Of a stretch of 64,000 bases of DNA, positions 4,706 through 58,150 are shown in pieces (position 1 is the stretch's first letter; every line of letters begins with the position of its first letter). The position numbers were made by a program, and so were the translations under genes. Location: positions 26,176,116-26,240,115 of the forward strand of contig CM055901.1 in NCBI GenBank assembly GCA_029582155.1, given 5' to 3'. This stretch comes from Panopea generosa. Taxonomy: Eukaryota > Mollusca > Bivalvia > Adapedonta > Hiatellidae. Under the pieces are notes generated by a model. It saw nothing but the letters and a program-made list of their open reading frames with translations. It was not told the origin of the DNA and made no database searches.

Positions 4706-7700
4706 TGCTATGTACATATAAGACAATAATACCCCAACCCAGACACAAACACTGTAAGAATGTAGTGTACATATAAAATAACATCCCCTCACGACACACA
4801 CAGTGTACGAATACAGTGTACATATAAAATAATAATACCACCAACCCAGACACAAACACTGTAAGAATGTAGTGTACATATAAAATAACATCCCCTCACG
4901 ACACACACAGTGTACGAATACAGTGTACATATAAAATAATGATAACCCCACCCAGACACAAACACTGTAAGAATGTAGTGTACACATAAAATAACATCCC
5001 CTCACGACACACACAGTGTACGAATACAGTGTACATATAAAATAATAATACCCCCACCCAGACACAAACACTGTAAGAATGTAGTGTACATATAAAATAA
5101 CATCCCCTCACGACACACACAGTGTACGAATACAGTGTACATATAAAATAATGATAACCCCACCCAGACACAAACACTGTAAGAATGTAGTGTACATATA
5201 AAATAACATCCCCTCACGACACACACAGTGTACGAATACAGTGTACATATAAAATAATAATACCCCCAACCCAGACACAAACACTGTAAGAATGTAGTGT
5301 ACATATAAAATAACATCCTCTCACGACACACACAGTGTACGAATACAGTGTACATATAAAATAATAATACCCCACCCAGACACAAACACTGTAAGAATGT
5401 AGTGTACATATAAAATAACATCCCCTCACGACACCCACAGTGTACGAATACAGTGTACATATAAAATAATTATACACCCAACCCAGACACAAACACGGTA
5501 AGAATGTAGTGTACATATAAAATAACATCCCCTCACGACACACACAGTGTACGAATACAGTGTACATATAAAATAATAATACCCCACCCAGACACAAACA
5601 CTGTAAGAATGTAGTGTACATATAAAATAACATCCTCTCACGACACACACAGTGTACGAATACAGTGTACATATAAAATAATGATAAATTCACCCAGACA
5701 CAAACACTGTAAGAATGTAGTGTACATATAAAATAACATCCCCTCACGACACACACAGTGTACGAATACAGTGTACATATAAAATAATGATAACCCCACC
5801 CAGACACAAACACTGTAAGAATGTAGTGTACATATAAAATAACATCCCCTCACGACACACACAGTGTACGAATACAGTGTACATATAAAATAATAATACC
5901 CCGACCCAGACACAAACACTGTAAGAATGTAGTGTACATATACAATAACATCCCCTCACGACACACACAGTGTACGAATACAGTGTACATATAAAATAAT
6001 AATACCCCCAACCAAGACACAAACACTGTAAGAATTTAGTGTACATATAAAATAACATCCACTCACGACACGCACAGTGTACGAATACAGTGTACATATA
6101 AAATAATAATACCCCCACCCAGACACAAACACTGTAAGAATGTAGTGTACATATAAAATAACATCCTCTCACGACACACACAGTGTACGAATACAGTGTA
6201 CATATAAAATAATAATACCCCCAACACAGACACAAACACTGTAAGAATGTAGTGTACATATAAAATAACATCCTCTCACGACACACATAGTGTACGAATA
6301 CAGTGTACATATAAAATAATGATAACCCCACCCAGACACAAACACTGTAAGAATGTAGTGTACATATAAAATAACATCCCCTCACGACACACACAGTGTA
6401 CGAATACAGTGTACATATAAAATAATAATACCCCCAACCCAGACACAAACACTGTAAGAATGTAGTGTACATATAAAATAACATCCTCTCACAACACACA
6501 CAGTGTACGAATACAGTGTACATATAAAATAATAATACCCCACCCAGACACAAACACTGTAAGAATGTAGTGTACATATAAAATAACATCCTCTCACGAC
6601 ACACACAGTGTACAAATACAGTGTACATATAAAATAATGATAACTTCACCCAGACACAAACACTGTAAGAATGTAGTGTACCTATAAAATAACATCCCCT
6701 CACGACACACACAGTGTACGAATACAGTGTACATATAAAATAATGATAACTCCACCGAGACACAAACACTGTAAGAATGTAGTGTACATATAAAATAACA
6801 TCCCCTCACGACACACACAGTGTACGAATACAGTGTACATATAAAATAATAATACCCCCACCAAGACACAAATACTGTAAGAATGTAGTGTACATATAAA
6901 ATAACATCCCCTCACGATACACACAGTGTACGGATACAGTGTACATATAAAATAATAATACCCCCAACCCAGACACAAACACTGTAAGAATGTAGTGTAC
7001 ATATAAAATAACATCCACTCACGACACGCACAGTGTACGATTACAGTGTACATATAAAATAATAATACCCCCACCCAGACACAAACACTGTAAGAATGTA
7101 GTGTACATATAAAATAACATCCTCTCACGACACACACAGTGTACGAATACAGCGTACATATAAAATAATAATACCCCCAACCCAGACACAAGCACTGTAA
7201 GAATGTAGTGTACATATAAAATAACATCCTCTCACGACACACACAGTGTACGAATACAGTGTACATATAAAATAATGATAACTTCACCCAGACACAAACA
7301 CTGTAAGAATGTAGTGTACATATAAAATAACATCCCCTCACGACACACACACTGTACGAATACAGTGTACATATAAAATAATAATACCCCCACCCAGACA
7401 CAAACACTGTAAGAATGTAGTGTACATATAAAATAACATCCTCTCACGACACACACAGTGTACGAATACAGTGTACATATAAAATAATAATACCCCCAAC
7501 CCAGACACAAACACTGTAAGAATGTAGTGTACATATAAAATAACATCCTCTCACGACACAAAAAGTGTACGAATACAGTGTACATATAAAATAATGATAA
7601 CCCCACCCAGACACAAACACTGTAAGAATGTAGTGTACATATAAAATAACATCCTCTCACGACACACACAGTGTACGAACACAGTGTACATATCAAATAA

Positions 7701-10700
7701 TAATACCCCCAACCCAGACACAAACACTGTAAGAATGTAGTGTACATATAAAATAACATCCCCCTCACGACACACACAGTGTACGAATACAGTGTACATA
7801 TAAAATAATAATACCCCGACCCAGACACAAACACTGTAAGAATGTAGTGTACATATACAATAACATCCCCTCACGACACACACAGTGTACGAATACAGTG
7901 TACATATAAAATAATAATACCCCCAACCAAGACACAAACACTGTAAGAATTTAGTGTACATATAAAATAACATCCACTCACGACACGCACAGTGTACGAA
8001 TACAGTGTACATATAAAATAATAATACCCCCACCCAGACACAAACACTGTAAGAATGTAGTGTACATATAAAATAACATCCTCTCACGACACACACAGTG
8101 TACGAATACAGTGTACATATAAAATAATAATACCCCCAACACAGACACAAACACTGTAAGAATGTAGTGTACATATAAAATAACATCCTCTCACGACACA
8201 CATAGTGTACGAATACAGTGTACATATAAAATAATGATAACCCCACCCAGACACAAACACTGTAAGAATGTAGTGTACATATAAAATAACATCCCCTCAC
8301 GACACACACAGTGTACGAATACAGTGTACATATAAAATAATAATACCCCCAACCCAGACACAAACACTGTAAGAATGTAGTGTACATATAACATAACATC
8401 CTCTCACAACACACACAGTGTACGAATACAGTGTACATATAAAAGAATAATACCCCACCCAGACACAAACACTGTAAGAATGTAGTGTACATATAAAATA
8501 ACATCCTCTCACGACACACACAGTGTACGAATACAGTGTACATATAAAATAATGATAACTTCACCCAGACACAAACACTGTAAGAATGTAGTGTACATAT
8601 AAAATAACATCCCCTCACGACACACACAGTGTACGAATACAGTGTACATATAAAATAATGATAACTCCACCGAGACACAAACACTGTAAGAATGTAGTGT
8701 ACATATAAAATAACATCCCCTCACGACACACACAGTGTACGAATACAGTGTACATATAAAATAATAATACCCCCACCCAGACACAAATACTGTAATAATG
8801 TAGTGTACATATAAAATAACATCCCCTCACGATACACACAGTGTACGAATACAGTGTACATATAAAATAATAATACCCCCAACCCAGACACAAACACTGT
8901 AAGAATGTAGTGTACATATAAAATAACATCCACTCACGACACGCACAGTGTACGATTACAGTGTACATATAAAATAATAATACCCTCACCCAGACACAAA
9001 CACTGTAAGAATGTAGTGTACATATAAAATAACATCCTCTCACGACACACACAGTGTACGAATACAGCGTACATATAAAATAATAATACCCCCAACCCAG
9101 ACACAAGCACTGTAAGAATGTAGTGTACATATAAAATAACATCCTCTCACGACACACACAGTGTACGAATACAGTGTACATATAAAATAATGATAACTTC
9201 ACCCAGACACAAACACTGTAAGAATGTAGTGTACATATAAAATAACATCCCCTCACGACACACACACTGTACGAATACAGTGTACATATAAAATAATAAT
9301 ACCCCCACCCAGACAAAAACACTGTAAGAATGTAGTGTATATATAAAATAACATCCACTCACGACACACACAGTGTACGAATACAGTGTACATATAAAAT
9401 AATGATAACCCCACCCAGACACAAACACTGTAAGAATGTAGTGTACATATAAAATAACATCCTCTCACGACACACACAGTGTACGAACACAGTGTACATA
9501 TAAAATAATAATACCCCCAACCCAGACACAAACACTGTAAGAATGTAGTGTACATATAAAATAACATCCCCCTCACGACACACACAGTGTACGAATACAG
9601 TGTACATATAAAATAATGATAACCCCACCCAGACACAAACACTGTAAGAATGTAGTGTACATATAAAATAACATCCTCTCACGACACACACAGTGTACGA
9701 ATACAGTGTACATATAAAATAATGATAACCCCACCCAGACAGAAACACTGTAAGAATGTAGTGTACATATAAAATAACATCCCCACACGACACACACAGT
9801 GTACGAATACAGTGTACATATAAAATAATAATACCTCAACCCAGAAACAAACACTGTAAGAATGTAGTGTATATATAAAATAACATCCACTCACGACACA
9901 CACAGTGTACGAATACAGTGTAGATATAAAATAATAATACCCCCAACCCAGACTCAAACACTGTAAGAATGTAGTGTACATATAAAATAACATCCCCTCA
10001 CGACACACACAGTGTACGAATACAGTGTACATATAAAATAATAATACCCCCAACCCAGACACAAACACTGTAAGAATGTAGTGTACATATAAAATAACAT
10101 GCTCTCACGACACACACAGTGTACGAATACAGTGTACATATAAAATAATGATAACCCCACCCAGACACAAACACTGTAAGAATGTAGTGTACATATAAAA
10201 TAACATCCTCTTACGACAAACACAGTGTACGAATACAGTGTACATATAAAATAATGATAACTTCACCCAGACACAAACACTGTAAGAATGTAGTGTACAT
10301 ATAAAATAACATCCTCTCACGACACACACATTGTACGAATACAGTGTACATATAAAATAATAATACCCCCAACCCAAACACAAACACTGTAAGAATGTAG
10401 TGTACATATAAAATAACATCCCCTCACGACACACACAGTGTACGAATACAGTGTACATATAAAATAATAATACCCCCAACCCAGACACAAACACTGTAAG
10501 AATGTAGTGTACATATAAAATAACATCCTCTCACGACACACACAGTGTACGAATACAGTGTACATATAAAATAATAATACCCCAACCCAGACACAAACAC
10601 TGTAAGAATGTAGTGTACATATAAAATAACATCCCCTCACGACACACACAGTGTACGAATACAGTGTAGATATAAAATAATAATACCCGCACCCAGACAC

Positions 10701-13700
10701 AAACACTGTAAGAATGTAGTGTACATATAAAATAACATCCTCTCACGACACACACAGTGTACGAATACAGTGTACATATAAAATAATAATACCTCCATCC
10801 CAGACACAAACACTGTAAGAATGTAGTGTACATATAAAATAACATCCCCTCACGACACACACAGTGTACGAATACAGTGTACATATAAAATAATAATACC
10901 CCCACCCAGACACAAACACTGTAATAATGTAGTGTACATATAAAATAACATCCTCTCACGACACACACAGTGTACGAATACAGTGTACATATAAAATAAT
11001 AATACCCCCAATCCAGACACAAACACTGTAAGAATATAGTGTACATATAAATTAACATCCCCTCACGACACACACAGTGTACGAATACAGTGTACATATA
11101 AAATAATAATACCCCCACCCAGAAACAAACACTGTAAGAATGTAGTGTACATATAAAATAACATCCTCTCACGACACACACAGTGTACGAATACAGTGTA
11201 CATATAAAATAATGATAACCCCACCCAGACACAAACAATGTAAGAATGTAGTGTACATATAAAATAACATCCCCTCACGACACACACAGTGTACGAATAC
11301 AGTGTACATATAAAATAATAATACCCCCAACCCAGACACAAACACTATAAGAATGTAGTGTACATATGAAATAACATCCACTCACGACACACACAGTGTA
11401 CGAATACAGAGTACATATAAAATAATAATACCCCCAACCCAGACACAAACACTGTAAACATGTAGTGTACATATAAAATAACATCCCCTCACGACACACA
11501 CAGTGTACGAATACAGTGTACATATAAAATAATAATACCCCCAACCTAGACACAAACACTGTAAGAATGTAGTGTACATATAAAATAACATCCACTCACG
11601 ACACACACAGTGTACGAATACAGTGTACATATAAAATAATAATACCCCAAACCCAGACACAGACACTGTAAGAATGTAGTGTACATATAAAATAACATCC
11701 TCTCACGACACACACAGTGTACGAATACAGTGTACATATAAAATAATAATACCCCACCCAGACACAAACACTGTAAGAATGTAGTGTACATATAAAATAA
11801 CATCCACTCACGACACACACAGTGTACGAATACAGTGTACATATAAAATAATGATAACTCCACCCAGACACAAACACTGGCAGAATGTAATGTACATATA
11901 AAATAACATCCCCTCACGACACACACAGTGTACGAATACAGTGTACATATAAAATAATACCACCTCACGACACACACAGTGTACGAATACAGTGTACATA
12001 TGAAATAATAATACCCCACCCAGACACAAACACTGTAAGAATGTAGTGTACATATAAAATAACATCCCCTCACGACACACACAGTGTACGAATACAGTGT
12101 ACATATAAAATAATGATAACCCCACCCAGACACAAACACTGTAAGAATGTAGTGTACATATAAAATAACATCCACTCACGACACACATAGTGTACGAATA
12201 CAGTGTACATATATAATAATGATACCCCCAACCCAGACTCAAACACTGTAAGAATGTAGTGTACATATAAAATAACATCCACTCACGACACACACAGTGT
12301 ACGAATACAGTGTACATATAAAATAATAATACCCCCAACCCAGACACAAACACTGTAAGAATGTAGTGTACATATAAAATAACATCCCCTCACGACGAAC
12401 ACAGTGTACGAATATAGTGTACATATAAAATAATGATAACCCCACCCAGACACAAACATTGTAAGAATGTAGTGTACATATAAAATAACATCCACTCACG
12501 ACACACATAGTGTACGAATACAGTGTACATATAAAATAATGATACCCCCAACCCAGACACAAACACTGTAAGAATGTAGTGTACGTATAAAATAACATCC
12601 CCTCACGACACACACAGTGTACGAATACAGTGTACATATAAAATAATGATAACCCCACCCAGACACAAACACTGTAAGAATGTAGTGTACATATAAAATA
12701 ACATTCACTCACAACACACATAGTGTACGAATACAGAGTACATATAGAATAATGATACCCGCACCCAGACACAAACACTGTAAGAACGTAGTGTACATAT
12801 AAAATAACATCCCCTCACGACACACACACAGTGTACGAATACAGTGTACATATAAAATAATAATACCCCAACCCAGACATAAACACTGTAAGAATGTAGT
12901 GTATATATAAAATAACATCCACTCACGACACACACAGTGTACGAATACAGTGTACATATAAAATAATGATAACCCCACCCAGACACAAACACTGTAAGAA
13001 TGTAGTGTACATATAAAATAACATCCACTCACGACACACATAGTGTACGAATACAGAGTACATATAGAATAATGATACCCGCACCCAGACACAAACACTG
13101 TAAGAATGTAGTGTACATATAAAATAACATCCCCTCACAACACACACACAGTGTACGAATACAGTGTACATATAAAATAATAATACCCAAACCCAGACAT
13201 AAACACTGTAAGAATGTAGTGTATATATAAAATAACATCCACTCACGACACACACAGTGTACGAATACAGTGTACATATAAAATAATAATACCCCAAACC
13301 CAGACACAAACACTGTAAGAATGTAGTGTACATATAAAATAACATCCTCTCACGACACACACAGTGTACGAATACAGTGTACATATAAAATAATAATACC
13401 CCCAATCCAGACACAAACACTGTAAGAATGTAGTGTACATATAAAATAACATCCCCTCACGACACACAGACAGTGTACGAATACAGTGTACATATAAAAT
13501 AATAATACCCCAACCCAGACATAAACACTGTAAGAATGTAGTGTATATATAAAATAACATCCACTCACTACACACACAGTGTACGAATACAGTGTACATA
13601 TAAAATAATGATAACCCCACCCAGACACAAACACTGTAAGAATGTAGTGTACATATAAAATAACATCCACTCACGACACACATAGTGTACGAATACAGAG

Positions 13701-16700
13701 TACATATAGAATAATGATACCCGCACCCAGACACAAACACTGTAAGAATGTAGTGTACATATAAAATAACATCCCCTCACGACACACACACAGTGTACGA
13801 ATACAGTGTACATATAAAATAATAATACCCCAACCCAGACATAAACACTGTAAGAATGTAGTGTATATATAAAATAACATCCACTCACGACACACACAGT
13901 GTACGAATACAGTGTACATATAAAATAATAATACCCCCAACCCAGACACAAACACTGTAAGAATGTAGTGTACATATAAAATAACATCCTCTCACGACAC
14001 ACACAGTGTACGAATACAGTGTACATATAAAATAATGATAACCCCACCAAGACACAAACACTGTCAGAATGTAGTGTACATATAAAATAACATCCCCTCA
14101 CGACACACACAGTGTACGAATACAGTGTACATATAAAATAATACCACTTCACGACACACACTGTGTACTTATACAGTGTATATATAAAATAATAATAACC
14201 CACCCAGACACAAACACTGTAAGAATGTAGTGTACATATAAAATAACATCCACTCACGACACACACAGTGTACGAATACAGTGTACATATAAAATAATAA
14301 TACCCCCACCCAGACACAAACATTGTCAGAATGTAGTGTACATATAAAATAACATCCCCTCACGACACACACAGTGTACGAATACAGTGTACATATAAAA
14401 TAATACCACCTCACGACACACACAGTGTACGAATACAGTGTACATATAAAATAATAATACCCCGACCTAGACACAAACACTGTAAGAATGTAGTGTACAT
14501 ATAAAATAACATCCCCTCACGACACACACAGTGTACGAATACAGTGTACATATAAAATAATAATACCCCCACCCAGACATAAACACTGTAAGAATGTAGT
14601 GTACATATAAAATAACATCGACTCACGACACACACAGTGTACGAATACAGTGTACATATAAAATAATAATACCCCACCCAGACACAAACACTGTAAGAAT
14701 GTAGTGTACATATAAAATAACATCCTCTCACGACACACACAGTGTACGAATACAGTGTACATATAAAATAATAATACCCCCAACCCAGACACAAACACTG
14801 TAAGAATGTAGTGTACATATAAAATAACATCCACTGACGACACACATAGTGTACGAATACAGTGTACATATAAAATAATAATACCCCCACCCAGACACAA
14901 ACACTGTAAGAATGTAGTGTACATATAAAATAACATCCTCTCACGATACACACAGTGTACGAATACAGTGTACATATTAAGTAATGATAACTTCACCCAG
15001 ACACAAACACTGTAAGAATGTAGTGTACATATAAAATAACATCCCCTCACGACACACACAGTATACGAATACAGTGTACATATAAAATAATGATAACCCC
15101 ACCCAGACACAAACACTGTAAGAATGTAGTGTACATATAAAATAACATCCCCTCACGACACACACAGTGTACGAACACAGTGTACATATAAAATAATGAT
15201 AACTTCACCCAGACACAAACACTGTAAGAATGTAGTGTACATATAAAATAACATCCCCTCACGACACACACAGTGTACGAATACAGTGTACATATAAAAT
15301 AATGATAACCCCTCCCAGACACAAACACTGTAAGAATGTAGTGTACATATAAAATAACATCCCCTCACGACACACACAGTGTACGAATACAGTGTACATA
15401 TAAAATAATGATAACTTCACCCAGACACAAACACTGTAAGAATGTAGTGTACATATAAAATAATATCCCCTCACGACACACACAGTGTACGAATACAGTG
15501 TACATATAAAATAATGATAACCCCACCCAGACACAAACACTGTAAGAATGTAGTGTACATATAAAATAACATCAACTCATGACACACACAGTGTACGAAT
15601 ACAGTGTACATATAAAATAATGATAACCCCACCCAGACACAAACACTGTAAGAATGTAGTGTACATATAAAATAACATCAACTCACGACACACACAGTGT
15701 ACGAATACAGTGTACATATAAAATAATGATAACCCCACCTAGACACAAACACTGTAAGAATGTAGTGTACATATAAAATAACACCCCCTCACGACACACA
15801 CAGTGTACGAATACAGTGTACATATAATATAATAATACCCGACCCAGACACAAACACTGTAAGAATGCAGTGTACATATAAAATAATACCACCTCACGAC
15901 ACACACAGTGTACGAATACAGTGTACATATAAAATAATAATACCCCACCCAGACACAAACACTGTAAGAATGTAGTGTACATATAAAATAACGTCCACTC
16001 ACGACACACACAGTGTACGAATACAGTGTACATATAAAATAATGATAACTTCACCCAGACACAAACACTGTAAGAATGTAGTGTACATATAAAATAACAT
16101 CCTCTCACGACACACACAGTGTACGAATACAGTGTACATATAAAATAATAATACCCCCAACCCAGACACAAACACTGTAAGAATGTAGTGTACATATAAA
16201 ATAACATCCACTCACGACACACACAGTGTACGAATACAGTGTACATATAAAATAATGATAACCCCACCCAGACACAAACACTGTAAGAATGTAGTGTACA
16301 TATAAAATAACATCCTCTCACGACACACACAGTGTACGAATACAGTGTACATATAAAATAATAATACCCCAACCCAGACACAAACACTGTAAGAATGTAG
16401 TGTACATATAAAATAACATCCCCTCACGACACACACAGTGTACGAATACAGTGTACATATAAAATAATGATAACCCCACCCAGACACAAACACTGTAAGA
16501 ATGTAGTGTACATATAAAATAATACCACCTCACGATACACACAGTGTACGAATACAATGTACATATAAAATAATGATAACCCCACCCAGACACAAACATT
16601 GTAAGAATGTAGTGTACATATAAAATAACATCCCCTCACGACACACACAGTGTACGAATACAGTGAACATATAAAATAATGATAACCCCACCCAGACACA

Positions 16701-18310
16701 AACACTGTAAGAATGTAGTGTACATATAAAATAACATCCCCTCACGACACACACAGTGTACGAATACAGTGTACATATAAAATAATGATAACTTCACCCA
16801 GACACAAACACTGTAAGAATGTAGTGTACATATAAAATAACATCCCCTCACAACACACACAGTGTACGAATACAGTGTACATATAAAATAACACCACCTC
16901 ACGACACACACAGTGTACGAATACAGTGTACATATAAAATAATGATAACCCCACCCAGACACAAACACTGTAAGAATGTAGTGTACATATAAAATAACAT
17001 CCTCTCACGACACACACTGTGTACGAATACAGTGTACATATAAAATAATACCACCTCACGACACACCCAGTGTACGAATACAGTGTACATATAAAATAAT
17101 AATACCCCCACCCAGACACAAACACTGTAAGAATGTAGTGTACATATAAAATAACATCCCCTCACGACACACACAGTGTACGAATACAGTGTACATATAA
17201 AATAATAATACCCCAACCCAGACACAAACACTGTAAGAATGTAGTGTACATATAAAATAACATCCCCTTACGACACACACAGTGTACGAATACAGTGTAC
17301 ATATAAAATAATAATACCCCCAACCCAGACACAAACACTGTAAGAATGTAGTGTACATATAAAATAACATCCACTCACGACACGAACAGTGTACGAATAC
17401 AGTGTACATATAAAATAATGATAACTTCACCCAGACACAAACACTGTAAGAATGTAGTGTACATATAAAATAACATCCCCTCACGACACACACACAGTGT
17501 ACGAATACAGTGTACATATGAAATAATACCACCTCACGACACACACAATGTACGAATACAGTGTACATATTAAATAATAATACCCCACCCAGACACAAAC
17601 ACTGTAAGAATGTAGTGTACATATAAAATAACATCCTCTCACGACACACACAGTGTACGAATACAGTGTACATATAAAATAATGATTACTTCACCCAGAC
17701 ACAAACACTGTAAGAATGTAGTGTACATATAAAATAACATCCCCTCACGACACACACAGTGTACGAATACAGTGTACATATAAAATAATACCACCTCACG
17801 ACACACACAGTGTACGAATACAGTGTACATATAAAATAATAATACCCCACCCAGACACAAACACTGTAAGAATGTAGTGTACATATAAAATAACATCCTC
17901 TCACGACAACACACAGTGTACGAATACAGTGTACATATTAAATAATGATAACTTCACCCAGACACAAACACTGTAAGAATGTAGGTGTACATATTAAATA
18001 ACCATCCCCTCACGGACACACACAGTGTACGAATACAGTGTACATATAAAATAATACCACCTCACGACACACACAGTGTACGAATACAGTGTACATATAA
18101 AATAATGATAACCCCACCCAGACACAAACACTGTAAGAATGTAGTCTACATATAAAATAACATCCCCTCACGACACACACAGTGTAACGAATACAGTGTA
18201 CATATAAAATAATAATACCCCACCCAGTCACAAACACTGTAAGAATGTAGTGTACATATAAAATAACATCCACTCACGACAAAACAGTGTACGAATACAG
18301 TGTACATATA
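4706..18310. repeat. 106-bp satellite array, copy 1
   Basis: About 13.6 kb of head-to-tail units of about 106 bp. Each unit has two related halves of about 53 bp that share 'agtgtacatataaaataa'. Half A begins 'actgtaagaatgt' and continues 'catcccctcacgacacac'. Half B begins 'gtgtacgaataca' and continues 'ataataccccaacccagac'. Recurrent variants are cccctc, cctctc or ccactc after 'cat' in half A, and acccc, gataacccc or gataacttc in half B. At least ten short units containing 'accacctcacg' are hybrids that drop one half-unit, mostly beyond 11.9 kb. The minus strand is nearly stop-free in all three frames, giving long repetitive open frames rich in Cys, Tyr and Val. Because 106 is not a multiple of 3, these shift frame each unit and are not credible proteins. 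Confidence 0.97.
5880..9780. repeat. Higher-order duplication within the satellite, period about 1.915 kb
   Basis: Rare unit variants recur at a constant offset of about 1,915 bp (about 18 units): 'ccccgacccag' at 5900 and 7815, 'atatacaataac' at 5937 and 7852, 'agaatttagtg' at 6031 and 7947, 'ctccaccgagac' at 6750 and 8665, 'tacgattacag' at 7030 and 8946, and 'acacaagcactg' at 7187 and 9102. Past about 7.4 kb the offset drops to about 1,807 bp (for example 'catccccctcacg' at 7757 and 9564), so one 106-bp unit is missing from the second copy. This is a segmental tandem duplication inside the array, not independent homogenisation. Confidence 0.85.
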
Positions 18311-18401
18311 AACATGACATTATTTAATATCGGAGGCAAACACACACCCCCTCTCTAAAAAGAGAGAAAAAATAATAACATTTGTCCATCAATGCAATGA
18401 A
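18311..18401. repeat. Array-edge unique flank, inverted copy of 45033-45125
   Basis: The 91 bp between the array end and the N gap contain 'atcggaggcaaacac', 'ccccctctctaaaaagagag' and 'catcaatgcaatgaa'. Their reverse complement matches 45033-45125 almost base for base, differing mainly by a 2-bp indel in a GT run. Base 18401, the last before the gap, pairs with 45033, where contig B continues into further unique sequence. Confidence 0.95.
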
Positions 18402-18901
18402 NNNNNNNNNNNNNNNNNNNNNNNNNNNNNNNNNNNNNNNNNNNNNNNNNNNNNNNNNNNNNNNNNNNNNNNNNNNNNNNNNNNNNNNNNNNNNNNNNNN
18501 NNNNNNNNNNNNNNNNNNNNNNNNNNNNNNNNNNNNNNNNNNNNNNNNNNNNNNNNNNNNNNNNNNNNNNNNNNNNNNNNNNNNNNNNNNNNNNNNNNNN
18601 NNNNNNNNNNNNNNNNNNNNNNNNNNNNNNNNNNNNNNNNNNNNNNNNNNNNNNNNNNNNNNNNNNNNNNNNNNNNNNNNNNNNNNNNNNNNNNNNNNNN
18701 NNNNNNNNNNNNNNNNNNNNNNNNNNNNNNNNNNNNNNNNNNNNNNNNNNNNNNNNNNNNNNNNNNNNNNNNNNNNNNNNNNNNNNNNNNNNNNNNNNNN
18801 NNNNNNNNNNNNNNNNNNNNNNNNNNNNNNNNNNNNNNNNNNNNNNNNNNNNNNNNNNNNNNNNNNNNNNNNNNNNNNNNNNNNNNNNNNNNNNNNNNNN
18901 N
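18402..18901. other. Assembly gap, 500 N
   Basis: Exactly 500 unknown bases. The second gap (58151-58650) is also exactly 500, so both are fixed-size scaffolding placeholders. Real distance, and even adjacency or orientation, is not established across them. Confidence 0.98.
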
Positions 18902-42740: not shown

Positions 42741-42744
42741 AAAT

Positions 42745-43510: not shown

Positions 43511-43683
43511 GCCATGACAACACTAATCGACAGGAAATCATCTATAACAAAAAGTTAAACTTCATATATTGACTTTCTTGAAAAAAATAGCAGTACTACC
43601 AAGTTTGATAATGTTCTACTTGCATTTGAATTAATCTTGTGTAATAATACTAATAAACTATAGTATATGTTTTTTGTTTGCAG

Positions 43684-43745: not shown

Positions 43746-44520
43746 GTTAGCCTGGTAAATAACGTAAAGATAAAGCAATGAAACTTAATCAGGCATATTA
43801 TCTTTAGTTCTTCAGAATATGAGATTTATTTGAACATGTTGCATCGATTCAAGGATATGAAATGTACATATTATACAGAATATAATGTGAAAAGTAAATA
43901 AGTTTACAGGAATTATTAATATATATTATAGACAACTAACACTAAATACATTTAATGATGATAAAGATCACATACAGGGAGAGGGGTAGATAGGGAATTG
44001 ATTTATACATAAAGTCAGGTGTACAACATTTTTCTCATATTGAAATAGAATTGGAGTATAATAATAATAGAATCTCATAGTTAAGCTTAATTTTTATCAA
44101 ACTATTTAAAATCGTTGGCAATAAAATGTATTAATACCTCGTGAGTGGGCTACTGCTCTTACTCGGTCAATTCTCGCAGACGCTTAATGATGATCAGAAT
44201 TATTAAATGCATAAATCATTGTAGTGAAATATCTATGTATCAACATATCTCATTTTGTACAACTAAACTGAAATAAAATTACAAAAAAAATATACTAAGA
44301 TTGAACCTCACATAATATATTATACTCGTTTTATAAATTTAATAATAAATTAATACTCCTGAGTGATCTTCTATATAGGTTCATTAAACTGGTCTAACGA
44401 TCATTTCCTAAACTATTCAATATTGAACTCAAATTACCGGACTAAGCCGATGTTCTCAAATACAGACTTGGTTTCACTTTCTCGTCAAATATTTGTTCAT
44501 AGTAAATAAGAAGATGAGTT
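43746..44520. other. Region without recognisable gene
   Basis: AT-rich unique sequence; I see no gene, RNA or ordered repeat. Confidence 0.5.
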
Positions 44521-44695
44521 CGGGTTGTAAAGCTACGCAATGGTAGTGCATCTGACTCGGGATCGGAGGGTCGTGAGCTCGATCCTCCGCCACGGCTGTG
44601 TGCGGTGTCCTTGACTAAAACGCTTTATTCACATGTGCTTATGCTAGTTTTTACCCAAGAACACATCGAGCGTGATTTGTTTCATAATCAAAATA
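44521..44695 (+). mobile_element. tRNA-derived SINE, family C
   Basis: A tRNA-like head contains 'acgcaatggtagtgcatctg' (A-box-like) and 'gtcgtgagctcgatcctc' (B-box-like). It is followed by 'tgtccttgactaaaacgc' and 'gagcgtgatttgtttcat'. It matches 34240-34395 (minus) block by block. It is too diverged to be a working tRNA. Confidence 0.75.
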
Positions 44696-45032
44696 TTATA
44701 AAAAATATGAAAAGTGTCACCGCCTTGAAACGTTCAATATCGGCAAGACGTCTCCGAATTAAACGTGGTTAATGAGTGCTACCAACACAATAAGATTTAA
44801 ACTTAAATTTAAGTAGTATGTAATCACGATGTGAAGATAAAAACTTATTTAAAATTACAGTTATCTGTGAACGAGTCACAAATAAAATAAACTGTATTGT
44901 TGAATTTAAAAATAAATAAACTTATTTTCAAATAATGGAATGTGTAATTATGCAAATGAATTCCTTTTATTGTATGTACTGATTGTTTTCAAAATGTTAC
45001 TATTAAAAAAAGGGCAAATTTAAACACCTTCT

Positions 45033-45125
45033 TTCATTGCATTGATGGACAAATGTTATTATTTTTTCTCTCTTTTTAGAGAGGGGGTGTGTATGTTTGC
45101 CTCCGATATTAAATAATGTCATGTT
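45033..45125. repeat. Array-edge unique flank, inverted copy of 18311-18401
   Basis: The reverse complement of the right edge of contig A. To the left of 45033 the sequence continues as unique DNA, whereas the partner at 18401 runs into the gap. This is the key evidence for an unmerged overlap between contigs A and B. Confidence 0.95.
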
Positions 45126-48100
45126 TTATGTACACTGTATCGTACAGTCTGTATTTATGTACATTCTTACTGTTTGTGATGTATTATATTTTATATGTAC
45201 ACTGTATTCGTACACTGTGGTGCGTGAGGGATTTATTATATGTAGACTACATTCTTACAGTGTTGTGACTGGTGGGGTATTATTATTTTATATGTACACT
45301 GTATTCGTACACTGTGTGTGTCGTGAGGGGATTATTTTATATGTAACACTATCTTACAGTGTTTGTGTCGGGGGGGATCATTATTTTATATGTACAACAT
45401 TCGTACAATGTTGTGTCGTGGGTGGTATTATTTTATATGTACACTGTATTCGTACACTGTGTGTGTCGTGAGGGATGTTATTTTATATGTACACTACATT
45501 CTTACAGTGTTTGTGTCTGGGGGGTATATTATTTATATGTACACTGTATTCGTACACTGTGTGTGTCGTGAGAGGATGTATTATTTATATGTACACTATT
45601 CTTACAGTGTTTGTGTCTGGGGGGTATTATTTTATATGTACACTTTATTCGTACACTGTGTGTGTCGTGAGGTTATTATTTTATATGTACACTGTATTCG
45701 TACACTGTGTGTGTCGTGAGGGGATGTTATTTTATATGTACACTACATTCTTACAGTGTTTGTGTCTGGGTGGTATTCATTATTTATATGTACACTGTAT
45801 TCGTACACTGTGTGTGTCGTGAGGTGATTATTTTATATGTACACTACATTCTTACAGTGTGTGGGTGGGGTGTATTTTTAATATGTACACTGTATTCGTA
45901 CATTTGTGTGTCGTGAGGTGGTATTATTATTTATATGTACACTGTATTCGTACACTGTGTGTGTCGTGAGGGGATGTATTTTATATGTACACTACATTCT
46001 TACAGTGTTTGTGTCTGGGTGAAGTTATCATTATTTTATATGTACACTGTATTCGTACACTGTTGTGTCGTGAGTGGATGTTATTTTATATGTACACTAC
46101 ATTCTTACAGTGTTTGTGTCTGGGTTGGGGGTATTATTATTTTATATGTACACTGTATTCGTACACTGTGTGTGTCGTAAGGGGATGTTATTTTATATGT
46201 ACACTACATTCTTACAGTGTTTGTGTCTGGGTTGGGGTATTATTATTATATGTACACTGTATTCGTACACTGTGTGTGTCGTGAGGGATTATTTATATGT
46301 ACACTACATTCTTACAGTGTTTGTGTCGTGGGGGTATTATTATTTTATATGTACACTGTATTCGTACACTGGGTGTGTCGTGGGGTATTATTTTATATGT
46401 ACACTGTATTCGTACACTGTGTGTGTCGTGAGGGATGTTATTTTATATGTACACTACATTCTTACAGTGTTTGTGTCTGTGGGGATCATTATTTTATATG
46501 TACACTGTATTCGTACACTGTGTGTGGGTGAGGTTGTTATTTTATATGTACACTGTATTCGTACACTGTGTGTGTTGTGAGGGGATGTTATTTTATATGT
46601 ACACTACATTCTTACAGTGTTTGTGTCTGGGTGGTTATCATTATTTTATATGTACACTGTATTCGTACACTGTGTGTGTCGTGAGGGGATGTTATTTTAT
46701 ATGTACACTACATTCTTACAGTGTTTGTGTCTGGGTGGGGTTATCATTATTTTATATGTTCACTGTATTCGTACACTGTGTGTCGTGAGGGATGTTATTT
46801 TATATGTACACTACATTCTTACAGTGTTTGTGTCTGGGTGGGTTATCATTATTTTATATGTACATTGTATTCGTAACTGTGTGTATCGTGGGGATATTAT
46901 TTTATATGTACACTACATTCTTACAGTGTTGGTGGGTGGGGTTATCATTATTTTATATGTACACTGTATTCGTACACTGTGTGTGTCGTGAGGGGATGTT
47001 ATTTTATATGTACACTACATTCTTACAGTGTTTGTGTCTGGTTGGGGTAGTTATTATTTTATATGTACACTGTATTCGTACACTGTGTGTGTCGTGAGAG
47101 GATGTTATTTTATATGTACACTACATTCTTACAGTGTTTGTGTCTGGGTGGAGTTATCATTATTTAATATGTACACTGTATTCGTACACTGTGGTGTCGT
47201 GAGGATGTTATTTTATATGTACACTATTCTTACAGTGTTTGTGTCGTGGGGATTATTATTTTATATGTACACTTTATTCGTACACTGTGTGTGTCGTGGG
47301 TGGTATATTTTATATGTACACTGTATTCGTACACTGTGGTGTGTCGTGAGGGATGTTATTTTATATGTACACTACATTCTTACAGTGTTTGTGTCTGGGT
47401 GGGGTATTATATTTATATGTACACTGTATTCGTACACTGTGTGTGTCGTGAGGTGTTATTTTTATATGTACACTGTATTCGTACAGTGTGTGTCGTGGGT
47501 GGATGTTATTTTATATGTACACATTCTTACAGTGTTGTGTCTGGGTGTATATTATTTTATATGTACACTGTATTCGTACACTGTGTGTGTCGTGAGTGGA
47601 TGTTATTTTATATGTACACTACATTCTTACAGTGTTTGTGTCTGGGTGGGGTATTATTATTTATATGTACACTGTATTCGTACACTGTGTGTGTCGTGGG
47701 ATGTTATTTTATATGTACACTACATTCTTACAGTGTTTGTGTCTGGGTTGGGGTTATTATTTTATATGTACACTGTATTCGTACACTGTGTGTGTCGTGA
47801 GGGATGTTATTTTATATGTACACTACATTCTTACAGTGTTTGTGTCTGGGTGGGGTATTATTATTTATATGTACACTGTATTCGTACACTGGTGTGTCGT
47901 GAGGTGTATTATTTTATATGTACACTGTATTCGTACACTGTGTGTGTCGTGAGGGGATGTTATTTTATATGTACACTACATTCTTACAGTGTTTGTGTCT
48001 GGGTGGGGGTATATATTTTATATGTACACTGTATTCGTACACTGGTGTGTCGTGAGGTGTGTTATTTTATATGTACACTGTATTCGTACACTGTGTGTGT

Positions 48101-51100
48101 CGTGAGGGGATGTTATTTTATATGTACACTACATTCTTACAGTGTTTGTGTCTGGGTGGTTATCATTATTTATATGTACACTGTATTCGTACACTGTGTG
48201 TGTCGTGAGGGTGTATTTTATATGTACACTACATTTTACAGTGTTTGTGTCTGGTGGTTATCATTATTTTATATGTACACTGTATTCGTACACTGTGTGT
48301 GTCGTGAGGGGATGTTATTTTATATGTACACTACATTCTTACAGTGTTTGTGTCTGGGTGGGGTTATCATTATTTTATATGTACACTGTATTCGTACACT
48401 GTGTGTGTCGTGAGGTGGATTATTTTATATGTACACTACATTCTTACAGTGTTTGTGTCTGGGTGGGTTATCATTATTTTATATGTACACTGTATTCGTA
48501 CACTGTGTGTGTCGTGAGGGGATGTTATTTTATATGTACACTACATTCTTACAGTGTTTGTGTCTGGGTGGGGTATTATATTTATATGTACACTGTATTC
48601 GTACACTGTGTGTGTCGTGAGAGGATGTTATTTTATATGTACACTACATTCTTACAGTGTTTGTGTCTGGGTGGGGTTATCATTATTTTATATGTACACT
48701 GTATTCGTACACTGTGTGTGTCGTGAGGGATGTTATTTTATATGTACACTACATTCTTACAGTGTTTGTGTCTGGTTGGGGTATTATTATTTTATATGTA
48801 CACTGTATTCGTACACTGTGTGTGTCGTGAGGATGTTATTTTATATGTACACTACATTCTTACAGTGTTTGTGTCTGGGTGGTTATCATTATTTTATATG
48901 TACACTGTATTCGTACACTGTGTGTGTCGTGAGTGGACGTTATTTTATATGTACACTACATTCTTACAGTGTTTGTGTCTGGGTGGGGTATTATTATTTT
49001 ATATGTACACTGTATTCGTACACTGTGTGTGTCGTGAGGTGGTATTATTTTATATGTACACTACATTCTTACAGTGTTTGTGTCTGGGGGTATTATTATA
49101 TTATATGTACACTGTATTCGTACACTGTGTGTGTCGTGAGGGGTGTTATTTTATATGTACACTACATTCTTACAGTGTTTGTGTCTGGGTGGGTATATTA
49201 TTTTATATGTACACTGTATTCGTACACTGTGTGTGTCGTGAGGTGATGTTATTTTATATGTACACTACATTCTTACAGTGTTTGTGTCTGGGTGGGGTTA
49301 TCATTATTTTATATGTACACTGTATTCGTACACTGTGTGTGTCGTGAGGATGTTATTTTATATGTACACTACATTCTTACAGTGTTTGTGTCTGGGTGGG
49401 GTTATCATTATTTTATATGTACACTGTATTCGTACACTGTGTGTGTCGTGAGGGGATGTTATTTTATATGTACACTACATTCTTACAGTGTTTGTGTCTG
49501 GGGGTTATCATTATTTTATATGTACACTGTATTCGTACACTGTGGTGTCGTGGGGATGTTATTTTATATGTACACTACATTCTTACAGTGTTTGTGTCTG
49601 GGGGTTATCATTATTTTATATGTACACTGTATTCGTACACTGTGTGTCGTGAGGGATGTTATTTTATATGTACACTACATTCTTACAGTGTTTGTGTCTG
49701 GGTGAAGTTATCATTATTTTATATGTACACTGTGTTCGTACACTGTGTGTGTCGTGAGGGGATGTTATTTTATATGTACACTACATTCTTACAGTGTTTG
49801 TGTCTGGGTGGTTATCATTATTTTATATGTACACTGTATTCGTACTGTGTGTGTCGTGAGGGGATGTTATTTATATGTACACTACATTCTTACAGTGTTT
49901 GTGTCTGGGGAAGTTATCATTTTATATGTACACTGTATTCGTACACTGTGTGCGTAGTGGATGTTATTTTATATGTACACTACATTCTTACAGTGTTTGT
50001 GTCTGGGTGGGGGTATTATTATTTTATATGTACACTGTATTCGTACACTGTGTGTCGTGAGAGGATGTTATTTTATATGTACACTACATTCTTACAGTGT
50101 TTGTGTCTGGGTGGGGGTATTATTTTATATGTACACTGTATTCGTACACTGTGTGTGTCGTGAGGATGTTATTTTATATGTACACTACATTCTTACAGTG
50201 TTTGTGTCTGGGTGGGGTATTATTATTTTATATGTACACTGTATTCGTACACTGTGTGTGTCGTGAGTCGATGTTATTTTATATGTACACTACATTCTTA
50301 CAGTGTTTATGTCTGGGTGGGGTATTATTATTTTATATGTACACTGTATTCGTACACTGTGTGTCGTGAGGGGATGTTATTTTATATGTACACTACATTC
50401 TTACAGTGTGTGTCTAGGTCGGGGATTGTTATTTTATATGTACACTATTCGTACATGTTTGTGTCGTGGGTGGTATTATTTTATATGTACACTGTATTCG
50501 TACACTGTGTGTGTCGTGAGGGATGTTATTTTATATGTACACTACATTCTGACAATGTTTGTGTCTGGTGGGGGTATTATTATTTTATATGTACACTGTA
50601 TTCGTACACTGTGTGTGTCGTGAGTGGATTATTTTATATGTACACTACATTCTTACAGTGTTTGTGTCTGGGGGATTTATTTATATGTACACTACATTCT
50701 GACAGTGTGTGTCTGGTGGGGTATTATTTTATATGTACACTGTATTCGTACACTGTGTGTGTCGTGAGGGGATGTTATTTTATATGTACACTACATTCTA
50801 CAGTGTTTGTGTCTGGGTGGGGTTATTATTTTATATGTACACTGTATTCGTACACTGTGTGTGTCGTGAGAGGATGTTATTTTATATGTACACTACATTC
50901 TTACAGTGTTTGTGTCTGGGTTGGGGTATTATTATTTTATATGTACACTGTATTCGTACACTGTGTGTGTCGTGAGGGATGTTATTTTATATACACTACA
51001 TTCTTACAGTGTTTGTGTCTGGGTTGGGGTATTATTATTTTATATGTACACTGTATTCGTACACTGTGTGTGTCGTGAGGGATGTTATTTTATATGTACA

Positions 51101-54100
51101 CTACATTCTTACAGTGTTTGTGTCTGGGTGGGGTATCATTATTTATATGTACTGTATTCGTACACTGTGTGTGTCGTGAGTGGATGTTATTTTATATGTA
51201 CACTACATTCTTACAGTGTTTTGTCTGGGTGGGGTTATATTATTTTATATGTACACTGTATTCGTACACTGTGTGTGTCGTGAGGGATGTTATTTTATAT
51301 GTACACTACATTCTTACAGTGTTTATGTCTGGGTTGGGGTATTATTATTTTATATGTACACTGTATTCGTACACTGTGTGTGTCGTGAGGGGATGTTATT
51401 TTATATGTACACTACATTCTTACAGTGTTTGTGTCTGGATTGGGGTATTATTATTTTATATGTACACTGTATTCGTACACTGTGTGTGTCGTGAGAGGAT
51501 GTTATTTTATATACACTACATTCTTACAGTGTTTGTGTCTGGGTTTGGGGTATTATTATTTTATATGTACACTGTATTCGTACACTGTGTGTGTGTCGTG
51601 AGGGATGTTTTATATGTACACTACATTCTTACAGTGTTTGTCTGGGTTGGGGTATTATTATTTTATATGTACACTGTATTCGTACTGTGTGTGTCGTGTG
51701 AGGGATGTTATTTTATATGTACACTACATTCTTACAGTGTTTGTGTCTGGGTGGGGTATCATTATTCTATATGTACACTGTATTCGTACACTATGTGTGT
51801 CGTGAGTGGATGTTATTTTATATGTACACTACATTCTTACAGTGTTTGTGTCTGGGTGGGGTATATTATTTTATATGTACACTGTATTCGTACACTGTGT
51901 GTGTCGTGAGTGGATGTTATTTTATATATACACTACATTCTTACAGTGTTTATGTCTGGGTTGGGGTATTATTATTTTATATGTACACTGTATTCGTACA
52001 CTGTGTGTGTGTCGTGAGGGGATGTTATTTTATATGTACACTACATTCTTACAGTGTTTGTGTCTGGGTGGGGTATCATTATTTATATGTACTCTGTATT
52101 CGTACACTGTGTGTGTGAGGGATGTTATTTTATATGTACACTACATTCTTACAGTGTTTGTGTCTGGGTGGGGTTATCATTATTTTATATGTACACTGTA
52201 TTCGTACACTGTGTGTGTCGTGAGGGGATGTTATTTTATACGTACACTACATTCTTACAGTGTTTGTGTCTGGGTTGGGGTATCATTATTTTATATGTAC
52301 ACTGTATTCGTACACTATGTGTGTCGTGAGTGGATGTTATTTTATATGTACACTACATTCTTACAGTGTTTGTGTCTGGGTGGGGTTATCATTATTTATA
52401 TGTACACTATATTCGTACACTGTGGTCGTGAGGGATGTTTTTATATGTACACTACATTCTTACAGTGTTTGTGTCTGGGTTGGGGTATATTATTTTATAT
52501 GTACACTGTATTCGTACACTTGTGTGTCGTGAGTGGATGTTATTTTATATGTACACTACATTCTTACAGTGTTTGAGTCTGGGTGGGGTATCATTTTATA
52601 TGTACACTGTATTCGTACACTGTGTGTGTCGTGAGTGGATGTTATTTTATATGTACACTACATTCTTACAGTGTTTGTGTCTGGGTGGGGTTATTATTTT
52701 ATATGTACACTGTATTCGTACACTGTGTGTGTCGTGAGTGATTATTTTATATGTACACTATTCGTACAGTGTGTGTCGTGAGGGGATTATTTTATATGTA
52801 CACTGTATTGTACACTGTGTGTGTCGTGGGTGGTATTATTTTATATGTACACTGTATTCGTACACTGTGTGTGTCGTGAGGGATGTTATTTTATATGTAC
52901 ACTACATTCTGCCAGTGTTTGTGTCTGGGGGGTATTATTATTATATGTACACTGTATTCGTACACTGTGTGTGTCGTGAGTGGATGTTATTTTATATGTA
53001 CACTACATTCTTACAGTGTTTGTGTCTGGGTGGGTATTATTTTATATGTACACTGTATTCGTACACTGTGTGTGTCGTGAGAGGATGTTATTTTATATGT
53101 ACACTACATTCTTACAGTGTTGTGTCTGGGTTTGGGGTATTATTATTTTATATGTACACTGTATTCGTACACTGTGTGTGTCGTGAGTGGATGTTATTTT
53201 ATATGTACACTACATTCTTACAGTGTTTGTGTCTGGGTTGGGGTATTATTATTTTATATGTACACTGTATTCGTACACTGTGTGTGTCGTGAGTGGATGT
53301 TATTTATATGTACACTACATTCTTACAGTGTTTGTGTCTGGGTTGGGGGTATTATTATTTTATATGTACTGTATTCGTACACTGTGTGTGTCGTGAGGGA
53401 TGTTATTTTATATGTACACTACATTCTTATAGTGTTTGTGTCTGGGTTGGGGTATTATTATTTTATATGTACACTGTATTCGTACACTGTGTGTGTCGTG
53501 AGGGATGTTATTTTATATGTACACTACATTCTTACATTGTTTGTGTCTGGGTGGGGTTATCATTATTTTATATGTACACTGTTCGTACACTGTGTGTGTC
53601 GTGAGAGGATGTTATTTATATGTACACTACATTCTTACAGTGTTTGTGTCTGGTGGGGGTATTATTATTTTATATGTACACTGTATTCGTACACTGTGTG
53701 TGTCGTGAGGGGATGTTAATTTATATGTACACTACATTCTTACAGTGTTTGTGTCTGGATTGGGGGTATTATTATTTTATATGTACACTGTATTCGTACA
53801 CTGTGTGTGTCGTGAGAGGATGTTATTTTATATGTACACTACATTATTACAGTGTTTGTGTCTGGGTGGGGGTATTATTATTTTATATGTACACTGTATT
53901 CGTACACTGTGTGTGTCGTGAGATGTTATTTTATATGTACACTACATTCTTACAGTGTTTGTGTCTGGGATGGGGTATTATTATTTTATATGTACACTGT
54001 ATTCGTACACTGTGTGTGTCGTGAGGATGTTATTTTATATGTACACTACATTCTTACAGTGTTTGTGTCTGGGTGCGGGTATTATTATTTTATATCTACA

Positions 54101-57100
54101 CTGTATTCGTACACTGTGTGTCGTGAGAGGATGTTATTTTATATGTACACTACATTCTTACAGTGTTTGTGTCTGGGTGGGGTATTATTATTTTATATGT
54201 ACACTGTATTCGTACACTGTGTGGTCGTGAGGGATGTTATTTTATATGTACACTACATTCTTACAGTGTTGTGTCTGGGTTGGGGGTATTATTATTTTAT
54301 ATGTACACTGTATTCGTACACTGTGTGTGTCGTGAGGGATGTTATTTTATATGTACACTACATTCTTACAGTGTTTGTGTCTGGTTGGGGTATTATTATT
54401 TATATGTACACTGTATTCGTACAATGTGTGTCGTGAGAGGATGTTATTTTATATGTACACTACATTCTTACAGTGTTTGTGTCTGGGTGGTTATCATTAT
54501 TTATATGTACACTGTATTCGTACACTGTGTGTGTCGTGAGAGGATGTTATTTTATATGTACACTACATTCTTACAGTGTTTGTGTCTGGGTGGGGTTTCA
54601 TTATTTTATATGTACACTGTATTCGTACACTGTGTGTGTCGTGAGAGATGTTATTTTATATGTACACTACATTCTTACAGTGTTTGTGTCTGGGTTGGGG
54701 TATATTATTTTATATGTACACTGTATTCGTACACTGTGTGTGTCGTGAGGGATGTTATTTTATATGTACACTACATTCTTACAGTGTTTGTGTCTGGTTG
54801 GGGGTATTATTATTTTATATGTACACTGTATTCGTACACTGTGTGTGTCGTGAGTGGATGTTATTTTATATATACACTACATTCTTACAGTGTTTGTGTC
54901 TGGGTTGGGGGTATTATTATTTTATATGTACACTGTATTCGTACACTGTGTGTCGTGTGAGGATGTTATTTTATATGTACACTACATTCTTACAGTGTTT
55001 GTGTCTGGGTGGGGTTATCATTATTTTATATGTACACTGTATTCGTACACTGTGTGTGTCGTGAGGGGATGTTATTTTATATGTACACTACATTCTTACA
55101 GTGTTTGTGTCTGGGTGGGGTATCATTATTTTATATGTACACTGTATTCGTACACTGTGTGTGTCGTGAGGGGATGTTATTTTATATGTACACTACATTC
55201 TTACAGTGTTTGTGTCTGGGTGGGGTATTTATTTTATATGTACACTGTATTCGTACACTGTGTGTGTCGTGAGAGGATGTTATTTTATATGTACACTACA
55301 TTCTTACAGTGTTGTGTCTGGGTGGGGTTATCATTATTTTATATGTACACTGTATTCGTACACTTTGTGTCGTGAGAGGATGTTATTTTATATGTACACT
55401 ACATTCTTACAGTGTTTGTGTCTGGGTGGGGTATTATTATTTTATATGTACACTGTATTCGTACACTGTGTGTGTCGTGAGTGGATGTTATTTTATATGT
55501 ACACTACATTCTTACAGTGTTTGTGTCTGGTGGGGTTATTTATTTTATATGTACACTGTATTCGTACACTGTGTGTGTCGTGAGGGATGTTATTTTATAT
55601 GTACACTACATTCTTACAGTGTTTGTGTCTGGGTGGTATTATTATTTTATATGTACACTGTATTCGTACACTGTGTGTGTCGTGAGAGGATGTTATTTTA
55701 TATGTACACTACATTCTTACAGTGTTTGTGTCTGGGTTGGGGTATTATTATTTTATATGTACGCTGTATTCGTACACTGTGTGTGTCGTGAGAGGATGTT
55801 ATTTTATATGTACACTACATTCTTACAGTGTTTGTGTCTGGGTGGGGTATTATTTTATATGTACACTGTAATCGTACACTGTGTGTCGTGAGTGGATGTT
55901 ATTTTATATGTACACTACATTCTTACAGTGTTTGTGTCTGGGTGGGTATTATTATTTTATATGTACACTGTATTCGTACACTGTGTGTCGTGAGGGGATG
56001 TTATTTTATATGTACACTACATTCTTACAGTTTGTGTCTGGGTGGGGGTATTATTATTTTATATGTACACTGTATTCGTACACTGTGTGTGTCGTGAGGG
56101 GATGTTATTTTATATGTACACTACATTCTTACAGTGTTTGTGTCTCGGTGGAGTTATCATTATTTTATATGTACACTGTATTCGTACACTGTGTGTGTCG
56201 TGAGAGGATGTTATTTTATATGTACACTACATTCTTACAGTGTTTGTGTCTGGGTGAAGTTATATTATTTTATATGTACACTGTATTCGTACACTGTGTG
56301 TGTCGTGAGAGGATGTTATTTTATATGTACACTACATTCTTACAGTGTTTGTGTCTGGGTGGGGTATTATTATTTTATATGTACACTGTATTCGTACACT
56401 GTGTGTGTCGTGAGGGATGTTATTTTATATGTACACTACATTCTTACAGTGTTTGTCTGGGTGGGGTTATCATTATTTTATATGTACACTGTATTCGTAC
56501 ATGTGTGTCGTGAGAGGATGTTATTTTATATGTACACTACATTCTTACAGTGTTGTGTCTGTGTTGGGGTATTATTATTTTATATGTACACTGTATTCGT
56601 ACACTGTGTGTGTCGTGAGAGGATGTTATTTTATATGTACACTACATTCTTACAGTGTTTGTGTCTGGGTGGGGGTATTATTATTTTATATGTACACTGT
56701 ATTCGTACACTGTGTGTGTCGTGAGGGATGTTATTTTATATGTACACTACATTCTTACAGTGTTTGTGTCTTGGTTGGGGGTATATTATTTTATATGTAC
56801 ACTGTATTCGTACACTGTGTGTGTCGTGAGGGATGTTATTTATATGTACACTACATTCTTACAGTGTTTGTGTCTGGGTCGGGTATTATATTTTATATGT
56901 ACACTGTATTCGTACACTGTGTGTGTCGTGAGGGGATGTTATTTTATATGTACACTACATTCTTACAGTGTTTGTGTCTGGGTTGGGGGTATTATTATTT
57001 ATATGTACACTGTATTCGTACACTGTGTGTGTCGTGAAGGGGATGTTTTTATATGTACACTACATTCTTACAGTGTTTGTGTCTGGGTGGGGTATATATA

Positions 57101-58150
57101 TTTATATGTACACTGTATTCGTACACTTGTGTGTCGTGAGAGGATGTTATTTTATATGTACACTACATTCTTACAGTGTTTGTGTCTGGGTTGGGGGTAT
57201 TATTTTATATGTACACTGTATTCGTACACGTGTGTGTCGTGAGGATGTTATTTTATATGTACACTACATTCTTACAGTGTTTGTGTCTGGTGGGGTATAT
57301 TATTTTATATGTACACTGTATTCGTACAGTGTGTGTGTCGTGAGGGATGTTATTTTATATGTACACTACATTCTTACAGTGTTTGTGTCTGGGGGTTATT
57401 ATTTTATATGTACACTGTATTCGTACACTGTGGTGTCGTGAGAGGATGTTATTTTATATGTACACTACATTCTTACAGTGTTGTGTCTGGGTGGGGGTAT
57501 TATTATTTTATATGTACACTGTATTCGTACACTGTGTGTGTCGTGAGAGGATGTTATTTTATATGTACACTACATTCTTACAGTGTTTGTGTCTGGGTGG
57601 GGGTATTATTATTTTATATGTACACTGTATCGTACACTGTGTGTGTCGTGAGTGGATGTTATTTTATATGTACACTACATTCTTACAGTGTTTGTGTCTG
57701 GGTTGGGGTATTATATTTTATATGTACACTGTTCGTACACTGTGTGTATCGTGAGGATGTTATTTTATATGTACACTACATTCTTACAGTATTTGTGTCT
57801 GGGTGGGGTATTATTATTTTATATGTACACTGTATTCGTACACTGTGTGTGTCGTGAGGGATGTTATTTTATATGTACACTACATTCTTACAGTGTTTGT
57901 GTCTCGGTGGAGTTATATTATTTTATATGTACACTGTATTCGTACACTGTGTGTGTCGTGAGGGGATGTTATTTTATATGTACACTACATTCTTACAGTG
58001 TTTGTGTCTGGGTGAAGTTATCATTATTTTATATGTACACTGTATTCGTACACTGTGTGTGTCGTGAGAGGATGTTATTTATATGTACACTACATTCTTA
58101 CAGTGTTGTGTCTGGGTGGGTATTATTATTTTATATGTACACTGTATTCG
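45126..58150. repeat. 106-bp satellite array, copy 2 (inverted, indel-rich)
   Basis: The same satellite as 4706-18310 but reverse-complemented: units read 'tatatgtacactgtattcg', 'tacactgtgtgtgtcgtgag', 'acactacattcttacagtg' and 'tttgtgtctgggt'. Single-base and short deletions are frequent, mainly in runs of G, T and in GT or TAT repeats (for example tcgtgaggatg for tcgtgaggggatg, and attatttatatg for attattttatatg). Copy 1 is largely free of these except in its last 400 bp. The order of rare variants from the shared flank matches copy 1. Open frames across it are artefacts, broken often by the indels. Confidence 0.96.

Follow-up and report, generated by a model that had tools for sequence, protein, structure and literature searches.

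Does a geoduck chromosome carry two large copies of one satellite array facing each other, or has a single array been written down twice? The question is raised by 64,000 nucleotides of the Panopea generosa assembly JAPMAH000000000.1 (C8:26176116-26240115; this whole stretch is the window in what follows, and positions are counted from its first letter), in which a satellite array in one contig recurs, inverted, in the next. From the letters alone, a preliminary description had proposed that the two inverted arrays are one locus and that the second contig stands backwards. Very probably that is so, with one array assembled twice and one contig placed backwards, and what has the look of chromosome structure would then be an assembly error, not biology. 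The support comes from contig ends that overlap as a dovetail, outer flanks that are single, a degraded second copy and a similar overlap at a nearby join.

The make-up of the assembly is relevant here. As the assembly sections of its paper relate (PMC10729735), Falcon assembled PacBio Sequel reads with a subread N50 of 26,513, Arrow and Pilon served for polishing, and scaffolding by Juicer and 3D-DNA gave 39 scaffolds from 2086 contigs (contig N50 1.57 Mb, chromosome N50 76,670,739). That makes 2047 joins, and 2047 x 500 N is exactly the gap between the scaffold and contig totals of that paper, so that the two runs of 500 N in the window, at 18402-18901 and 58151-58650, are scaffold joins of unknown true size. 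They separate contig A (1-18401 in the window), contig B (18902-58150; 39,249 bp, small against the contig N50) and contig C. Genome-wide match searches covered 1,474,161,289 bases in 39 sequences.

Matching arrays at two contig ends

In contig A the array occupies 4711-18312 on the plus strand, as delimited by Tandem Repeats Finder (TRF), and its units, narrowly distributed in length, are of about 51 and 55 bp, making a dimer of 106 bp; a period of 213 bp fits too. The copy in contig B, 45187-58150 on the minus strand, appears from BLAST, 15-mers, alignment and unit consensus to be the same array as A 6508-18312, inverted and degraded by small deletions and by smoothing of its consensus. Within array A, 5706-7205 recurs at 7621-9120 with a spacing of 1915 bp and about 99% identity, probably through a recent duplication within the array, and a rare word from that repeat, ccaccgaga, is likewise doubled in array B.

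Where do the two copies end? Contig A runs on for 89 bases past the array (18313-18401, plus strand), and these correspond to the reverse complement of 45033-45123 with 89 matches, 0 mismatches and one 2-base indel. In contig B the flank and the array edge (45033-45186, minus strand) run on, by alignment and the genome match search, into unique sequence. That A stops inside the flank at a 500-N gap while B continues is as had been described earlier; a right flank common to the two is present as well, with only 89 bases outside the array doubled. At its far end array B stops at the B/C join (58151-58650); by the array comparison about 1.8 kb more of array would be needed to reach the left boundary seen in A. 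The copies are therefore both separated by a gap and at contig boundaries, A's ending 89 bp before the gap and B's at its own gap, and the match extends to the final base of both contigs, the geometry of a dovetail. As the scaffold stands, the ends that overlap point in the wrong direction, since it is B's right end, reverse-complemented, that A's right end matches. The A/B join at 18402-18901 is judged false, and the part of B taken as non-duplicated from match searches with 44400-45186 and with B's left end, 18902-45032, should go after A in reverse complement (minus strand), 18401 being followed by 45032 and so on down to 18902.

Collinearity and register

The preliminary description had relied on rare variants said to recur in the same order in the two arrays when these are read inward from the flank. 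Collinearity of 4711-18312 with the reverse complement of 45187-58150 is borne out by a wider comparison: of the 350 15-mers found once in each array and common to A and the reverse complement of B, 305 fall in one order, the maximum in 200 shuffles being 40, and on the same strand the arrays have 0 unique 15-mers in common. As to the chosen words, 11 of the 13 were found in both arrays where they had been placed, exactly or within 3 bases, and the remaining two, cacaatgtacg and atattaaat, are present in A (the second of them 8 bases off) and are each broken in B by a 1-base deletion. Two of the words are not unique: cccctcacaacac occurs twice in A, and cacgatacac four times in A and twice in B. 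The first pair, gtagtctac and cagtcac, do not keep the order claimed for them, being swapped in B beside the flank, where B is longer by about one unit, a net gain of roughly 50-70 bases.

Contig A was aligned to the reverse complement of B, the check that had been proposed for this reading, and in register, over 10,964 aligned bases, the totals are 10,870 matches, 94 mismatches and 280 indel events. These are made up of A 6508-15991 against B 58150-48940 (9,111 matches, 83 mismatches, 9,194 aligned bases) and A 16547-18401 against B 46875-45033 (1,759 matches, 11 mismatches, 1,770 aligned bases). How special is that register for a sequence made of repeated units? The placement in register, with its 83 mismatches, keeps 21 of 51 rare A variants; in seven placements forced off it (7 of 16 rows, at shifts of -1696, -1272, +1272, +1696, +2120, +2544 and +3816) the mismatches number 215-289, and 0-3 of 36-52 rare A variants are kept. 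A further 8 rows shifted by 212-848 either way slid back to the true register, end gaps being free, and were left out of the controls.

Alignment and claim part company over the wording that the contigs 'overlap cleanly'. Apart from the 280 indel events, the register given by unique anchors jumps by about 1.5 kb from A 15992 to A 16548: B first traverses sequence resembling A 16.2 to 17.4-17.6 kb, goes back to A 16.2 kb and continues to the flank, so that roughly 1.3-1.5 kb of array is held twice in B. The register step lies at about 46875-48382 on the minus strand, the limits, from alignment and placement scores, being approximate. For the first passage the margin is narrow in some rows, e.g., a score of 744 against 741, and the rows for B 47800-47000 are ambiguous. 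Behind the step there may be an assembly error in B, a collapse in A or alleles of different length.

Unequal quality of the two copies

Measured against A, B has lost 1-4 bases in each of 252 deletion events, whereas insertion events number only 28, one of which is of 45 bases (p 3e-46). Against the unit consensus, from which units of >70 bp were excluded (13 of 242 in A, 9 of 243 in B), there are 1.04 deletion events per unit in B (234 units) and 0.05 in A (229 units), with substitutions at 0.48 per unit in B and 0.99 in A. Insertion events in A reach 0.32 per unit near 17 kb, a rise not specific to the contig end since a similar one, 0.21-0.38, is present at 12-13 kb. Judged by its sequence, array B looks like A's after a poor consensus, in which small deletions would have been left and rare variants washed out.

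The mismatches point in the same direction. Gap-free context is available for 58 of the 94, the other 36 having been left out of the division into rare and common because of a gap in their context; at 38 of the 58 the base is rare in A and common in B, at 2 it is the reverse, and 18 are undecided. In a second count, over 7,608 gap-free columns, B keeps the rare A variant at 26 sites and has lost it at 32; of the rare B variants, A shares those at 30 sites, and those at 3 are private to B.

Flanks and neighbouring joins

A single locus should have its left flank once, as is the case on A, and its right flank continued once, as is the case on B. The left flank at 3700-4705 (1,006 bases) has one match in the genome, its own, this being the one candidate. 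For 44400-45186 there is one full-length match among the best 40 of 2136 candidates, the 39 other rows among these being partial, at 75-83%, and of the nature of a dispersed repeat; only 114 bases of that query are present in contig A.

Is an unmerged overlap a rarity hereabouts? Three 500-N joins lie within 264 kb around the window, and in a survey based on BLAST matches of >400 bp, with N runs of other lengths uncounted, two of the three have unmerged overlaps, only that of A/B being inverted. At the B/C join there is no overlap of >400 bp by BLAST. The other overlap is at C8:26293904-26294403, outside the window, next but one along the scaffold from A/B, some 60 kb beyond B and 59,138 bases rightward from the point where C begins; it spans 5.5 kb, is unmerged and has the right orientation, and of its 5,453 aligned bases 5,450 match and 3 do not, with 37 indels besides. 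Like A/B, it has a contig end repeated at the start of the next contig across 500 N; unlike A/B, it is correctly oriented, mostly non-tandem, at 99.9% substitution identity and free of one-sided noise.

What would B's left end meet after the flip? The left end, which starts in a 27-bp satellite, would then face C, and no overlap was found for or against that join. A genome-wide search for a partner of B's left end (18902-20190) found none: rows elsewhere reach only its first 0.79 kb and are mainly of the 27-bp satellite, at <=91% apart from one row of 36 bases at 94%, and the part from about 1.15 kb onward matches only nearby places within B. The 27-bp tandem array itself occupies 18902-19633 and has relatives on 15 other sequences of the 39. 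The first 2 kb of contig C have themselves as sole full match, the 39 other rows being partial at 82-91%, among the best 40 of 3259 candidates.

How the two copies may have arisen

A Falcon false duplication at contig ends, joined to a Hi-C orientation error, is an account that fits the sequence. At the locus there would be a single satellite array of about 13.6-15 kb. Falcon would have ended contig A 89 bases beyond the array's right edge and contig B, coming from the other side, within the same array, so that both contigs hold most of it and a dovetail overlap of about 12 kb was left unmerged. Polishing would have worked well on A's copy, while in B's the deletion errors stayed and rare variants gave way to the consensus of the repeat. 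3D-DNA would then have put the 39-kb contig B beside A in the wrong orientation, so that a false duplication running head to tail came to look like an inverted repeat. Correctly ordered, the locus would read A 1-18401 and then B 45032-18902 in reverse complement. The sequence shows the collinearity, the unequal quality of the copies, outer sequences that are found once and the like overlap at another join; the steps of assembler and polishing, the same-haplotype origin of the copies and B as the contig to flip are what we infer. The sequence by itself tells no more than that A's right end meets B's right end; that B is the one to be turned is suggested by its small size, flipping a small contig being the simpler choice.

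Are there precedents? Homotype false duplications are described, in the relevant part of one study (PMC8081667), as lying near contig boundaries, being of about read length and being recognised by differing consensus quality; there one example was put down to a Falcon bug that was fixed later, and falsely duplicated sequence is noted to draw reads during polishing. Elsewhere a gap between copies is treated as a mark of false duplication, with heterotype duplication as its main source and sequencing errors as a minor one (PMC9516828, in the part concerned). The geoduck case is like the homotype cases of these accounts in that the copies flank a gap, are at contig ends, are on the scale of long reads, differ in consensus quality (1.04 against 0.05 deletion events per unit) and come from Falcon; it is unlike them in that the copy is inverted through a flipped contig, consists of a satellite array and has the step of about 1.5 kb. 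As for orientation, inversions are common with short input contigs, according to the SALSA2 authors, in whose comparison 3D-DNA made more errors than SALSA2 across simulated contig sizes (PMC6719893, in the passages on these points). Contig B, of 39 kb and oriented with Hi-C by 3D-DNA, resembles those cases; unlike them, the error here is visible in the sequence, an unmerged overlap showing which ends pair.

Weighing the alternatives

What speaks against one array assembled twice? Four things do. Between A and B there is a length difference of about 1.5 kb, and another of about one unit at the flank edge, which weighs because a pure copy of one molecule should lack such differences. At the other unmerged overlap the indels are balanced, 21 against 16, with no one-sided excess, so that B's noise is not general to contig ends here. 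The mismatch rate is 0.86% for A/B and 0.055% at that other overlap, an excess that would be attributable to the smoothing of B. Lastly, the rate of unmerged overlaps rests on three joins, too few.

The first of these points is the one that a heterotype false duplication would accommodate. A and B would then be two parental alleles differing in length, B having been inverted by the scaffolder, and there would still be one locus and a flipped contig; of the rivals this one survives best, though it is rather improbable. The difference of about 1.5 kb and the extra unit near the flank would suit it, as would the k-mer heterozygosity of 1.37% (PMC10729735, in the part giving genome statistics), heterotype duplication being tied to higher heterozygosity in the Vertebrate Genomes Project text concerned (PMC8081667), and its standing as the main source of false duplication (PMC9516828, same part) favours it as a prior. 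However, haplotype-specific variation amounts, the length difference apart, to very little, B-private substitutions numbering 2 or 3. Real alleles, and likewise the arms of a palindrome, should be roughly symmetric, each with private variants, and the one-sidedness found (38 against 2 where the context is free of gaps, 32 against 3 in the other count) argues against both, as does the B-only total of just 3 in so many columns. Smoothing may hide B-private variants, and may have erased some, yet B still shows 26 of 58 rare A variants, and some of its own should then be visible too. The 89-base flank with 0 mismatches also speaks against alleles but is too short to decide.

Inverted repeats of satellites exist, and the deposited scaffold does show both copies in inverted orientation, so could this be a real large palindrome, its array copies about 27 kb apart and the second less well assembled? 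That is very unlikely. The preliminary description had thought it the less likely reading because A's arm ends exactly at a contig break; each arm is in fact cut by a gap, so that neither can be seen complete from end to end in unbroken sequence. The gaps interrupt both arms at exactly the points at which contigs should end under the overlap model. The left flank has a single genomic match, and the part of C in the window has no sequence in common with A, nor with B, by BLAST at E 1e-10, so that the palindrome's outer ends would have to hide in the gaps. B has almost no private variants, and an unmerged overlap of the same type lies about 60 kb beyond it. A very recent inverted duplication, its arms identical save for sequencing error and a 1.5-kb expansion in one of them, with its ends in gaps, is no more credible. 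Finally, that the likeness is merely what any two arrays of this satellite family share has a negligible chance, for although the unit is strongly conserved and off-register BLAST identity reaches about 90%, family likeness alone is rejected by the 83 mismatches in register against 215-289 off it and the 305 of 350 ordered 15-mers against a shuffle maximum of 40, with rare A variants kept at 21 of 51 against 0-3 of 36-52.

Other features of the window

Within contig B, away from its ends, TRF finds two adjacent 43-bp tandem arrays, 20197-20604 and 20618-21070, apparently oppositely oriented by their consensus units and so a small inverted pair. Further along, 39547-43510 holds a 15-bp array of about 3.2 kb and then a 43-bp array of 0.77 kb, also by TRF. 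On the minus strand at 24823-26850 there is an open frame of 675 amino acids with a reverse transcriptase domain (PF00078, E 6e-20), probably a retrotransposon of the long interspersed nuclear element (LINE) type. An Rfam scan of the window gave 0 matches at gathering scores.

Significance

With one array assembled twice and contig B backwards, the geoduck reference would have an error that can be located, in which about 12-13 kb of satellite are a false duplicate and a contig of 39 kb is misoriented. The same fault may recur among the 2047 joins, unmerged overlaps being present at two of the three examined, a number too small for a rate. The approach is reusable, in that rare variants within a tandem array reveal which contig ends pair. 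For the organism itself, the two deposited copies are not to be read as an inverted repeat, as a palindrome or as extra satellite.

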